Source: Thermosyntropha sp.
GTDB taxonomy: Bacteria > Bacillota > Syntrophomonadia > Syntrophomonadales > Syntrophomonadaceae
Assembly (NCBI RefSeq): GCF_017656155.1
Contig: NZ_JACDOH010000012.1
Span: 1 to 52,126, forward strand
Direction of reading: 5' to 3'
DNA: 52,126 bases
Made by a program: the position numbers and the translations under genes
The notes under the pieces: generated by a model
The model's database searches: none
What the model saw: the letters and a program-made list of their open reading frames with translations, nothing else
Told to the model about the DNA's origin: nothing
Shown here: piece after piece, positions 8,984 to 16,822 of the stretch
Layout of the letters: every line of letters starts with the position of its first letter
Numbering within the stretch: position 1 is the stretch's first letter

Positions 8984-9299
8984 TTATTTGCCAAAGTATC
9001 TTTCCAGTAAGCCTTTGAAAGCAGCGCCGTGGCGGGCTTCATCTTTAGCCATTTCATGCACGGTATCGTGAATGGCGTCATAATTTAGCTCTTTTGCCCG
9101 GGTGGCTAAATCTTTTTTGCCTTTGCATGCTCCGTGTTCTGCCTCTACCCGCATTTTAAGGTTAGTTTTAGTATCAGCTGTAACTACTTCACCTAAAAGC
9201 TCAGCAAATTTTGCAGCATGTTCGGCTTCTTCAACAGTTTGTCGGAGCTTGTTCTCCTTCATGAACATAACTACAGATACCGCATACAAATTTTTTCAT
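8984..9299 (-). pseudogene. Rubredoxin-first rubrerythrin (NADH peroxidase type) with internal deletion
   Basis: From an ATG at 9299 with AGGAGG just upstream, the gene starts [19 protein letters not shown], the first half of an N-terminal rubredoxin domain (CxxC seen). It then reaches TGA at the TNC-stop junction. In another frame the sequence continues as [16 protein letters not shown] to [15 protein letters not shown], which is the second half of a rubrerythrin di-iron domain. The second rubredoxin CxxC and the first ferritin-like helices are missing, about 75 codons by comparison with the family, and the junction shifts the frame. Flanking parts are well preserved, so the loss looks recent. 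The 101-residue open frame that remains cannot build the di-iron site. Confidence 0.85.
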
Positions 9300-9333
9300 A
9301 AATATGATTCCTCCTCTTATTTTGTATTAATTT

Positions 9334-9753
9334 TTATGATAAAGCCTTGTTAAGGCATAAAGGGCAGGTGCCCTTAAAGTAAATATGGCTTTCGCTTATT
9401 TTAAAATTATTCAGCTCTGCGGGTAGGATGTCAGATGAAGTAAGCCTTATATCATAAATTTTGCCGCAGACATCGCATTTGAAGTATCCGTGCAGAGAAA
9501 TATCTGCATCATATCTGGTTTCATTTTCATCAATAGTGATGAGTAAGGCGACATTTTTTTCGACAAAAAGATTTAAAGTGTTGTAAACTGTTGTCTTGGA
9601 AAAGGTAGGAATTTCCTTTACCAGTTTCTGATAAATCATATCCGCAGTAGGATGATTCTTCTTTTAGACTAAATAGGAAAATATTTTTATACGATAATAA
9701 GAAGGTTTTATATTGTGTTTTTTTAAAAACTGCTCGATAGTTTTATAATCCAT
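9334..9753 (-). pseudogene. perR: PerR/Fur-family peroxide regulator interrupted by one in-frame TAA
   Basis: Reading from ATG at 9753 gives a full Fur-family protein of about 140 codons, broken only by a TAA at 9664-9666 (codon 30). Before the stop come MDYKTIEQFLKKH and YRIKIFSYLV. After it, in the same frame, come KKNHPTADMIYQKLV, the DNA-recognition helix KTTVYNTLNLF, and both structural zinc motifs, CDVC and CPLC. Homologues usually carry Glu, Gln or Lys where the stop is, so one substitution explains it. TAA does not encode selenocysteine. Translation from the internal ATG at 9639 would lack the first helices. It lies 34 bp ahead of the rubrerythrin pseudogene in one operon. Confidence 0.85.
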
Positions 9754-9933: not shown

Positions 9934-11112
9934 ATGACTTTAAGGTCAGATGCGATACCTTATCTTAAAATGGTAGCACCTTTTATTGCTGAAGCTCAGG
10001 AAGATGGAGCATGTATAGCTATAACTGACCGAGAAAAGGTTGTGTTTAAGCATTGTTCTCCCCATTTTGATATACCAGGCATAAAAGAGGGGGAATATAT
10101 ACAAAAAGGAGGAGCGGCGGAAAGAATAATAAGGGAGGGGAAGATGCTTAAGTTTTCCATAACCGGCAATCAGTATGGACTAAAGCAAAGGGGTATGTGT
10201 CTTAATATCACTGGTACTCCTATTTTAGATGAAGGTGGACAGGTAGTGGGAGCTTTTATCATTTTTGCTGCCAGCCCTCATCCAGTATATAAATCCTTTG
10301 GGGTTTTAGCTGAAGTAATAGATCAGGCATTAGACAAGCGCATTAATTTCGTTCTAACTGACACGGAGGAGATTGTAGCTACAACTAGGGCATTAACTAC
10401 TGATTATGCTCATGTTTCCGGGCTGCAACCTGGGACTAAGCTTTTTCCCGATGGGTCAATTAAACAGTCGATTATACACAATCGGGTAGTACGGGAGGAG
10501 CCGGGTTACACTCGGGACAAGCTAGGAGTAGCATTTGAGGTTACTTCTTTTCCGCTCCGTTCGGACAAGGGTGAAGTTACAGGGGCATTTTGCAGTATTA
10601 TTGATCGTACGGTCAATGAAGATGTTAAAGGGCATGTACAGTCTTTGCAGGAATCGATAAGTCAGATTACTATGGCGATAGAAAGTGTAGTAAATGCCGT
10701 ATCAGAAGTGGTTGAGCAACAAAATAGTCTCAATGAAAAAGTGCAGGAAATAGGACAGGCTTCTGATAAGATTGAGGAGATACTTAAGTTTATAAAGGAA
10801 GTGGCGGAAGAGACTAAGATGTTGGGTTTAAATGCAGCTATTGAAGCAGCCAGGGCAGGAGAAGTGGGCAAAGGGTTTAGTGTCGTGGCCAATGAAATCC
10901 GCAAACTTTCGGAGCAGTCCAAGGAAACAGTTAATCAAATAAGAGGTTTTATAAACTATATAAATAATCAAATAAAAGATGCCGCTGCTGCTGCAGATTA
11001 TACGGTAAGTACTGCCGAATCACAGGCGGCAGCTATGGAAGAGATAAATGCCAGCATAGAAGAGATTAATGCTTTGGCTGAAGTTTTAGTTAAAGAGGTG
11101 CAAAATCTGTAG
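9934..11112 (+). CDS. Soluble methyl-accepting chemotaxis-type receptor
   Basis: This 392-residue protein has no membrane segment or signal peptide, so it acts in the cytoplasm. Residues 1 to about 225 form a sensory region of two similar alpha/beta halves with GAF/PocR-like character; the ligand is unknown. Residues about 230-392 are an MCP signalling domain with the conserved tip [19 protein letters not shown]. The signalling rod is short, so it is a minimal receptor. Start ATG follows AAGGGAGG. It is divergent from the perR operon and shares the intergenic region with the PerR-type box, so a redox or peroxide link is possible but unproven. The selenoprotein gene follows 54 bp downstream. 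Confidence 0.85.
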
Positions 11113-11166
11113 ATTAAAGGGTAATATTAAAATAAAATAAAGTAATTTTAAAAGGAGGTAAGGTAT

Positions 11167-11475
11167 ATGGTTAAAGTCAAAATATATGCTGGATTTAATT
11201 ATTCTTCTGGCTGATGTAGTAAACCGGGCTGGAGTCCGGAGGCTACCCGAAGAGTTTATGACAAGCTGTCGTCTGAATTGAAGGATGAGTATGGTGATAA
11301 AATTGATTTAAGCTTTGAAGATACTTCCCAGCATGTTTTAGATCCGGATTCAGAGATAAAAAGGCTTCAGGAACAAGGTAAGTCTTTTCCCATGGTCTTT
11401 GTGGAAGAGAAGCTGGTAATGGATGGAGGTATAGATAAAAAAGAACTGAAAAAGTTAATCGAAGAAAATCTTTAA
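11167..11475 (+). CDS. Small thioredoxin-fold selenoprotein (UGA = Sec at codon 16)
   Basis: An ATG at 11167 with an excellent AAAAGGAGG site opens MVKVKIYAGFNYSSG, then an in-frame TGA (11212-11214), then CSKPGWSPEATRRVYDKL to a TAA at 11473-11475. Read as selenocysteine the product has 102 residues with a Sec-Cys redox pair (U16-C17). The pattern is beta strand, U-C motif, helix, strand, then FPMVFVEEKLVMDGG, which resembles the cis-Pro edge of thioredoxin-like folds. A hairpin fit for a bacterial SECIS follows the TGA directly. Overall shape recalls small thiol oxidoreductases such as the YuzD family, but the family was not firmly recognised. Annotation that starts at the internal TTG of 11278 would miss the active site. 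A terminator follows. Confidence 0.82.
11212..11246 (+). promoter_or_regulatory. Candidate bacterial SECIS element for UGA recoding
   Basis: Directly after the TGA, GTAG (11216-11219) can pair with CTAC (11243-11246) and CCGG (11224-11227) with CCGG (11236-11239). This leaves an apical loop GCTGGAGT with a GG. The apical loop lies 14-21 bases after the UGA, the distance expected for SelB-dependent bSECIS hairpins. The helix also encodes protein, as is normal in bacteria. Confidence 0.7.
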
Positions 11476-11502
11476 AAAAGCCCGCATGTGCGGGCTTTTT
11501 TT
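11474..11502 (+). terminator. Bidirectional terminator between selenoprotein and SLH genes
   Basis: GCCCGC (11480-11485) pairs with GCGGGC (11490-11495), preceded by A6 and followed by T7, so it can serve the plus-strand selenoprotein gene and the minus-strand SLH gene. Confidence 0.9.
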
Positions 11503-14605: not shown

Positions 14606-15268
14606 TTATTCTGCTTTTTTGAGCTGGGCAAACCATTTGGCATTATGATGAGAAGTATATTCAGCGTCTACATAACCGTCTATCATCATGGAGGCGAACT
14701 CTACCCTGGATTTGGGGTGGATTGCTGCCAGGAAGAAATGGCCTAAAATAGCTAAAATGAGGATTACTGCTGTCCAAAAATGTACTTTCCAACAAAGCCA
14801 GACTAATATTGCCGGCATTGTATCGCGTAAAAGCCACATGGGAAATCCAGTAACGATCATGAGTATGCATCCTATAATAACCAAAAGCCCCAGTATTTTC
14901 TGGCCGGCATTGTATTTATCCTGAGGAGGAATATGTTCAGCTTTGATAAAAGGTACATAACCTCCCATGGTTTTAAGCCAGCCGAAGTCATCTTTAGTAA
15001 AAGTAGTTATGGTATCAATAAACTTTGCAAATTTTTCAAAGTTGAACAAAACATAAATCAGGGGACCTAATGTGAAAACTACTCCTGTCCAGACATGGAC
15101 ATTAGAAGCATTGGCACTTCCGCCAAAGAGGTTATCAATGCTGGTTATGTCAAAGTAAAAACCTATTCCGGTTAATCCCAAGATAATAAAGCATATGAGA
15201 TGTATCCAATGCATGGTGCGGGTTTGTTCACTGTGTTTTAATACTTTACCTTTAATTTCACTCATCAT
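14606..15268 (-). CDS. Cytochrome b membrane subunit (formate dehydrogenase gamma/FdnI-like)
   Basis: This 220-residue protein has four hydrophobic segments and histidines placed as heme b ligands in the FdnI/HyaC group: MHWIHLICFIILGLTG near residue 20, SNVHVWTG near residue 57, and KVHFWTAV with LGHFFLAAIHP in the last helices. It would pass electrons between an exported oxidoreductase and the menaquinone pool. It is the last gene of an operon with hydA and hydB, 13 bp after hydB, so its partner here is an [FeFe] hydrogenase rather than formate dehydrogenase. Two adjacent ATGs (15268, 15265) follow AAGGAGGG; either may be used. Confidence 0.88.
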   Translation of the reverse strand: MMSEIKGKVLKHSEQTRTMHWIHLICFIILGLTGIGFYFDITSIDNLFGGSANASNVHVWTGVVFTLGPLIYVLFNFEKFAKFIDTITTFTKDDFGWLKTMGGYVPFIKAEHIPPQDKYNAGQKILGLLVIIGCILMIVTGFPMWLLRDTMPAILVWLCWKVHFWTAVILILAILGHFFLAAIHPKSRVEFASMMIDGYVDAEYTSHHNAKWFAQLKKAE

Positions 15269-15281
15269 AATCCCTCCTTAC

Positions 15282-15641
15282 TTAAGCTGCATGATGTCTG
15301 TGGGCTTCAAGCTCTTTAATAAGCTCAGGTATTTCACTGCCATATTTGGTGTGCAGGAGGTGATGAGACTTTTCAGTTAAAGGCTTAACTTCTCCAGGAG
15401 AAAGAAATTCTTTGTAGATTTGAATGATTTCTGGATTTTCATGGGATTTTCTTATGGTCATTCTTTCGTCTAAAGTGTAAAGTCCGGCAATGCGTTTTTC
15501 AATATATTTGTCACTTGCTTTAAAGATATCTATGCCGATTTTGCCGAGGATTCCAGCAAAGACAGCAGTTGCTGCGATTATACCTGTGCCTTTAAAAAAC
15601 TGGCGTCTGGTTATTCCTCCTCTTTCAACGAAGATATTCAT
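15282..15641 (-). CDS. hydB: [FeFe] hydrogenase small subunit with Tat signal
   Basis: This protein of about 119 residues begins with a twin-arginine signal, TRRQFFKG, followed by a hydrophobic stretch (IIAATAVFAGILG). The mature part carries the small-subunit pattern: IAGLYTLDERMTIRKSHENP, IYKEFL and KSHHLLHTKYG. It corresponds to the separate small subunit of Desulfovibrio-type periplasmic hydrogenase, which wraps the large subunit and carries it through the Tat pathway. ATG at 15641 fits GAGGTGAT; GTG at 15644 is an alternative. It lies 17 bp after hydA and 13 bp before the cytochrome b gene. Confidence 0.88.
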   Translation of the reverse strand: MNIFVERGGITRRQFFKGTGIIAATAVFAGILGKIGIDIFKASDKYIEKRIAGLYTLDERMTIRKSHENPEIIQIYKEFLSPGEVKPLTEKSHHLLHTKYGSEIPELIKELEAHRHHAA

Positions 15642-15658
15642 CACATATCACCTCTCTT

Positions 15659-16822
15659 TTAATAAGTATCCCGTCTGATTGGCTGCCCGCCACCGTTAAT
15701 ACAACCGCCAGGGCAGTTCATAACTTCGATAAAGTGGTATTTACTGCGTCCGGCCAGGACATCTTCGATTACTTCGTTTACATATTTAAGTCCGCTTACT
15801 ATGCATACATTAACCGGCACGGTTTTGCCCAGTTCTTTTATGGGGATATTTACTGTGGCTTCCCGTATTGGTTTTCTGCCGCGTACGGTTTTAAATTCTA
15901 CATTACCCAAAGATTGTCCGCTTAATATTTCATAAGCAGTACGCAAGGCTGCTTCCATTACTCCCCCGGTGACCCCAAATATAGTGGCAGCACCGGTTGA
16001 GGAGCCTATCAAACGGTCGGCTTTTTCATCCGGCAGACTTAAGAAGTTTATTCCAGCATCTTTAATCATTTGAGCCAATTCGCGGGTGGTTAATACTGCA
16101 TCTACATCCTGAAAACCGCTTGCTATCATTTCTTCGCGCTGACACTCGTATTTTTTAGCGGTGCAGGGCATAATTGAAACTACATACATGTCAGCCGGAT
16201 TTACATTTAATTTTTGTGCTGCATAAGTTTTGGCAACTGCTCCGAACATTTGCTGCGGTGATTTGGCAGATGAGATGTGAGGCAGTATTTTGGGATATCT
16301 GTCTTCCGCATATTTAATCCAGGCTGGACAGCATGATGTAAATTGCGGAAGCGGTCCTGATTTTTCATAACCGGGTACTCCTACATGTGCAAAAATACGG
16401 TGAATAAGTTCAGTTCCTTCTTCCATTATAGTCAGGTCAGCAGCAAATTCAGTGTCATATACTTTATCAAATCCTAGTCTTCTAAGAGCAGCGAACATTT
16501 TGCCTTTTACATTGGCTCCAGGCTCAAGGCCAAATTCTTCCCCTAAAGCTACCCGGACTGCGGGGGCGGTTTGGACAACTACTACTTTGCTAGGATCAGC
16601 TAAAGCTTTTTTGACCTGTTCTGCCATACTCATATCGACTATGGCTCCGAAGGGACAATTGATAAGACATTGTCCACAGTTGACGCATTTTTTGTGGTCA
16701 ATATAGTGCTTTTCCCCTAAGCGTCCTTTAATTGCTCCTGTGGGACAAACGGATGTACAGTGGTCACAGGATTTACAGCGGTCGGTAACATGGATAATTT
16801 CTTTGGTGACAACGGTACTCAC
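15659..16822 (-). CDS. hydA: [FeFe] hydrogenase large (catalytic) subunit, Desulfovibrio type
   Basis: This 387-residue protein has two N-terminal 4Fe-4S motifs (Cys 16, 19, 22, 26 and 46, 49, 52, 56). All three H-cluster signatures follow: FTSCCPAW (L1), MPCTAKKYE (L2) and MNCPGGCINGGGQP (L3). It catalyses reversible proton reduction. It lacks the N-terminal 2Fe-2S domain of cytosolic enzymes and ends just after L3, as expected when the C-terminal part is a separate HydB. It has no signal of its own and should be co-exported with HydB. Start is GTG at 16822 with GGGGAGGGAAGG upstream. With cytochrome b it forms a membrane-bound, outward-facing hydrogenase. Confidence 0.95.
   Translation of the reverse strand: MSTVVTKEIIHVTDRCKSCDHCTSVCPTGAIKGRLGEKHYIDHKKCVNCGQCLINCPFGAIVDMSMAEQVKKALADPSKVVVVQTAPAVRVALGEEFGLEPGANVKGKMFAALRRLGFDKVYDTEFAADLTIMEEGTELIHRIFAHVGVPGYEKSGPLPQFTSCCPAWIKYAEDRYPKILPHISSAKSPQQMFGAVAKTYAAQKLNVNPADMYVVSIMPCTAKKYECQREEMIASGFQDVDAVLTTRELAQMIKDAGINFLSLPDEKADRLIGSSTGAATIFGVTGGVMEAALRTAYEILSGQSLGNVEFKTVRGRKPIREATVNIPIKELGKTVPVNVCIVSGLKYVNEVIEDVLAGRSKYHFIEVMNCPGGCINGGGQPIRRDTY

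Follow-up and report, generated by a model that had tools for sequence, protein, structure and literature searches.

An apparently uncatalogued selenoprotein family, often found among arsenic-resistance genes, and its Sec-Cys member in Thermosyntropha

A review of May 2026 tabulates 119 prokaryotic selenoprotein families, including those of Haft & Tolstoy 2025, and describes the use of selenocysteine (Sec) in heavy-metal or arsenic detoxification (PMC13188914). The metal-linked selenoproteins known so far, namely Sao, the SO_0444 transporter, arsenate reductase and arsenite methyltransferase, belong to families different from the one described here (PMC13188914). Several selenoproteins (Trx UxxC, SaoT, HUIPC and Sec.1/Sec.2) place Sec in the active-site loop of a thioredoxin fold, as does the protein studied here. 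Two further described systems come close to it: YuzD/DUF1462 (Pfam PF07315; S. aureus SA0798, PDB 1xg8), which like the present family is about 100 amino acids long and has thiols in the loop that follows strand 1, and ArsD (NF033727, PF06953), which shares with it a thioredoxin fold, a vicinal pair in the same place and a GP-type motif, and whose vicinal Cys12 and Cys13 have been described as binding the inducer (PMC2440759).

The gene under study lies at 11167..11475 (+) of a 52,126-nucleotide stretch of Thermosyntropha sp. DNA, hereafter the window, and encodes a 102-aa protein with a thioredoxin-like fold and Sec16-Cys17. The contig that carries the window is C12 of a 2.1-Mb genome; a search of a plasmid collection gave no match. 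A ribosome-binding site, AAGGAGGT (11152..11159, +), read directly in the sequence, precedes the ATG at 11167, and the frame closes with TAA at 11473-11475. Its sole internal TGA is codon 16 (11212..11214, +), read as Sec and followed by the TGT of Cys17 (11215..11217, +), the gene's only Cys codon, so that the active-site motif is S-G-U-C-S-K-P-G-W. Behind the stop stands a terminator-like hairpin, GCCCGCATGTGCGGGC, with a T run (11480..11502, +), which is kept in Thermosyntropha lipolytica. Re-reading the sequence bore out what the initial annotation had described, a ribosome site and a 103-codon frame broken only by a TGA at codon 16 with a Cys codon next to it, and also its expectation that standard callers would start at 11278: all that a table-11 ORF finder gives at this locus is a shortened 65-aa ORF from TTG 11278 (11278..11475, +). 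We ruled out this start, which is not conserved, because T. lipolytica has TGG at the corresponding codon.

The thioredoxin-like fold proposed earlier is supported by an AlphaFold2 model built from a 69-row alignment (pLDDT 90, pTM 0.81; order E-H-E-H-E-E-H), in which Sec16-Cys17 falls in a low-confidence loop after strand 1, the active-site loop, and by its matches to solved structures. The top match, and the closest fold, is 1xg8 (YuzD/DUF1462; Z 8.9, rmsd 3.2, 92 aligned residues), followed by thioredoxins (about 8 to 8.5) and ArsD (3kgk, 8.3; 3mwh, 8.2), all of them tied within one Z unit. By sequence, the family profile reaches 1xg8 with an E value of 1e-5, and among Pfam entries the family matches DUF1462/PF07315 best, with two relatives above its gathering score of 25 (L084, 27.7; L156, 26.3) and the window protein, at 17.7, below it. 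For ArsD, hhalign with five sequences gave a probability of 94.9 and set C17-S-K-P-G-W22-S-P24 of the window protein on C13-S-T-G-V-C18-G-P20; Cys17 thus aligns with ArsD Cys13, and therefore Sec16 with Cys12. In ArsD, Cys18 completes the As(III) site. Its counterpart in the window protein is Trp22, so the full Cys12/Cys13/Cys18 ligand set is not met. The window protein has no match to ArsD models at cut-off (NCBIfam, 90 bits; Pfam, 27), and the best relative reaches only a sub-threshold 18.1. Moreover, true ArsD coexists with relatives in the same operons (L132, L133, L148), so the relatives are not simply ArsD.

Nor could we assign the protein to a known selenoprotein family, which is ruled out by NCBIfam and Pfam scans without a match at cut-off. 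It lacks the CxxC/UxxC active site that would be the test of thioredoxin membership and, having neither UxxC nor a family-model match at cut-off, differs from Trx UxxC, SaoT, HUIPC and Sec.1/Sec.2. No model of NCBIfam 20.0 recognises members of the family at its cut-off, and the table of 119 families contains no PF07315, no PF06953 and no such motif (PMC13188914). In a literature search that excluded subscription papers, DUF1462 was nowhere joined with a selenoprotein; papers joining ArsD, selenocysteine and arsenic dealt, as far as titles and abstracts outside subscription journals tell, with other subjects. The family had been called unrecognised and perhaps new. That neither NCBIfam nor the 2026 inventory contains it agrees with this, but it is not wholly unrecognisable, because it is distantly related to DUF1462/YuzD and ArsD.

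Relatives share with ArsD its operon setting. At 23 of 80 loci, eight of them TGA forms, an ACR3 arsenite exporter, ArsA, ArsD or an SO_0444/SaoE-type permease lies within 3 kb; representatives of these neighbours were identified by NCBIfam models, and, as the loci are not phylogenetically independent, we give no P value for their linkage. Among the arrangements are ArsR-ArsD-ArsA-ArsA followed by the Sec form (L133/L134, with a similar set in L148), ArsR-ACR3 followed by the Sec form (L128), the Sec form followed by ACR3 (L136), and ArsR, the Sec form, a permease and ACR3 in that order (L122). Tandem small DGC-like proteins recur beside ars-linked members (the L144:4126-4992 region, also L119, L141 and L090), and a representative of them matched no NCBIfam model. 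Most relatives in the window's own class lie upstream of a gene that we take, from its sequence and without running a model, to be miaB, or elsewhere, and several relatives have YedF, cysteine desulfurase or SelD genes as neighbours instead of ars genes, all of which counts against a metalloid role. Both Thermosyntropha genomes have a syntenic arsenic operon, MCP-ArsR-permease-ArsE-like-Trx-CcdA-CopZ-ArsC (L163:1396-6343 versus L078:3403-7646). The T. lipolytica operon contains a Cys paralogue of the family and no ACR3, whereas that of the window genome contains ACR3 and no Cys paralogue of the family; whether one replaced the other cannot be proved from two genomes. Even so, these two operons locate the family within the arsenic system that the window's own genus possesses.

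The window copy itself has no ars genes beside it. The gene immediately before it, in the same orientation, encodes a chemoreceptor with an MCP signalling domain (9934..11112, +); the gap between the two is 54 bp in the window and 21 bp in T. lipolytica, and they are possible operon partners. In both species the arsenic operon, too, is immediately preceded by a gene for a methyl-accepting chemotaxis protein (L163:6-1199, L078:1275-3263). On the other side of the chemoreceptor is a PerR-rubrerythrin pair (8984-9753, -). Compared with T. lipolytica, both of its genes are broken: codon 30 of perR is a TAA, and rubrerythrin is missing about 75 internal residues and changes frame. This agrees with the broken peroxide-defence operon reported by the initial annotation. 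Further along the window, genes for an iron-only hydrogenase large-subunit protein and a cytochrome b561-type subunit (14606-16822, -) are conserved in order in T. lipolytica.

We somewhat favour the reading that the gene encodes a selenol-thiol protein, on a YuzD/ArsD-type fold and with Sec decoded, that binds or hands over a trivalent metalloid. The main rival is a plain redox role, in which a Sec-Cys selenenylsulfide couple acts as a reductant of protein disulfides, peroxide or some other small oxidant, and linkage to ars genes reflects reductive support, for example of ArsC. We consider this unlikely, though it has the thioredoxin fold in its favour, a vicinal U-C pair could form a selenenylsulfide, and the T. 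lipolytica ars operon that holds a family member also encodes Trx, CcdA and ArsC. The broken perR and rubrerythrin nearby, from which a redox role had been hinted at, lend it some support as well; the breakage stands, but the neighbourhoods of relatives favour arsenic or metalloid handling over peroxide defence, and a link to peroxide defence is not needed, since the Sec gene is present both here, where perR and rubrerythrin are broken, and in T. lipolytica, where they are intact. Against a redox couple also speak the missing CxxC/UxxC spacing of the window protein and the three or four loop thiols of many relatives, which are more like metal or metalloid ligation.

It is quite improbable that the protein handles selenium, carrying or buffering selenide or selenium on its thiols for SelD. 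YedF is found near 8 loci, four of which also have a cysteine-desulfurase-like gene next to YedF, a SelD-like gene and YedF adjoin L137, and the hosts of TGA forms are almost all Sec users, as such a role would have it. However, linkage to ars genes is commoner among the loci than linkage to YedF, and Cys forms persist in genomes without selB.

The decoding of UGA16 as Sec is near certain, as shown by conservation rather than by experiment, with selenium incorporation inferred. A protein search found relatives in 38 of the 63 class genomes, and an alignment search found them in 79 of the 398 genomes of a phylum sample. From these searches 84 loci were extracted, 44 reading through a TGA and 40 scored without one; in a later listing two frames were extended, which brought the TGA members to 45. 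The window's TGA stands in the family's invariant Cys/Sec column, next to the residue that pairs with ArsD Cys13; all 80 aligned relatives have either Cys (46) or TGA (34) in this column, so the placement of the TGA is more than chance. Ten further members of the alignment have TGA at a nearby loop column; in all, TGA appears at four loop columns (24, 27, 31 and 38), and we do not claim that Sec truly moved between columns because the loop is gapped. Gly precedes the TGA in every TGA member listed, giving a family Sec motif of GU followed by Cys, SC, GC or GP. Sec and Cys forms are interleaved on the tree (L133 with L132/L142, L086 with L090, and L102 with its own paralogue). One Cys form (L108:4929-5291, genome G031) has a TAG within its N-terminal strand, either a nonsense mutation or an assembly error.

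The distribution of the Sec machinery agrees with this decoding. selB is present in 37 of 37 TGA-bearing genomes of the phylum sample (36 with the TGA inside the match, plus G393, where it was found on extension) against a background of 263/398 (Fisher p about 1.5e-7 versus the rest of the sample, uncorrected for relatedness). One class genome (G050, 92% complete) has a TGA-bearing member, yet no selB or tRNA-Sec above cut-off; this member (L088:60-383) sits at a contig end. The window genome encodes SelA (585.8 bits), SelB (376 bits, above the curated cut-off), SelD (358.7 bits) and a tRNA-Sec with anticodon TCA, all on contig C9. Its selD frame (L077:1162-2232, -) has an in-frame TGA of its own at codon 25 of the translated stretch (AAGUAAKIG), so SelD is likely a selenoprotein itself and the organism plausibly makes selenoproteins. 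A genome without Sec genes, or homologues that fail to align across the TGA or start downstream of it, would have refuted the initial annotation; neither is the case, and the Cys-containing homologues that it proposed to look for exist.

The nearest named genome is that of T. lipolytica DSM 11003. Its syntenic orthologue is 72-73% identical and keeps both the TGA and the TGT in place, with pS 0.65, pN 0.17 and dN/dS about 0.12; an in-frame UGA with coding sequence conserved on both sides meets the test for a bacterial selenoprotein. That the TGA is instead an ordinary stop, in a pseudogene or ahead of a translated ORF from 11278, is scarcely credible: the 65-aa call of standard ORF finders is what it has to offer, and it is in effect already refuted at the sequence level by conservation, since T. 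lipolytica shares the TGA, the sequence on either side of it is under purifying selection, the start at 11278 is not conserved, and dozens of relatives have TGA at a Cys column. The orthologue, the dN/dS and the family alignment likewise rule out a sequencing error.

The SECIS-like hairpin reported just behind the TGA is real (11216..11246, +; MFE -14.5 kcal/mol, z -1.98). It has a two-part stem, with the upper stem at 11224-11239, and an apical loop UGGA (11230-11233) that contains a G and lies 15 nt past the UGA. Across the family, a generic SECIS energy test was weak: hairpins of TGA members are no stabler than the equivalent region in Cys members (p=0.26), the loop G is the only hairpin feature enriched in TGA versus Cys members (p=0.014), and the consensus fold, from five members only, shows little covariation. 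Between the window and T. lipolytica, codons 10-27, which span the UGA and most of the hairpin, differ at 1 of 15 same-residue codons versus 27 of 56 elsewhere (p=0.003), and at 2 of 18 third positions versus 45 of 84 in the remainder (p=0.0013). Silent change is suppressed around the TGA and the hairpin, the pattern expected where an RNA element and a reading frame overlap.

Returning to the metalloid-binding selenol-thiol protein, UGA16 is, on the evidence of conservation, decoded as Sec by the genome's own SelA, SelB, SelD and tRNA-Sec, probably aided by the downstream hairpin, and the protein displays the vicinal selenol-thiol pair Sec16-Cys17 in the flexible loop that joins strand 1 to helix 1. 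By analogy with ArsD Cys12-Cys13, this pair may capture a soft trivalent metalloid, such as As(III) and possibly Sb(III) or organoarsenicals, and the metalloid or its thiol adduct may then be passed to an efflux partner (exporter) or a reductive one (reductase). The window copy would have departed from an ars operon and now stands behind a chemoreceptor, where its client has not been identified. Computation shows coding conservation across the UGA, the Sec machinery, the thioredoxin fold, Sec/Cys exchange and partial ars linkage; the metalloid role, As(III) binding included, is an inference that we put at about even odds. More tentatively still, the family may be a Bacillota-wide Sec-based metalloid chaperone with repeated Sec/Cys exchange, whose Thermosyntropha branch became detached from ars genes and coupled to a chemoreceptor.

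Thus, a widespread and apparently uncatalogued bacterial selenoprotein family, often located among arsenic-resistance genes, adds a broad family to the 119 listed in 2026, and its members are shortened or missed by gene callers. If the metalloid role is true, the family would provide an arsenic chaperone with a counterpart that uses Sec. The question of why metal-handling proteins use Sec would then become directly testable, since close relatives, and even paralogues within one genome, differ in having Sec or Cys.
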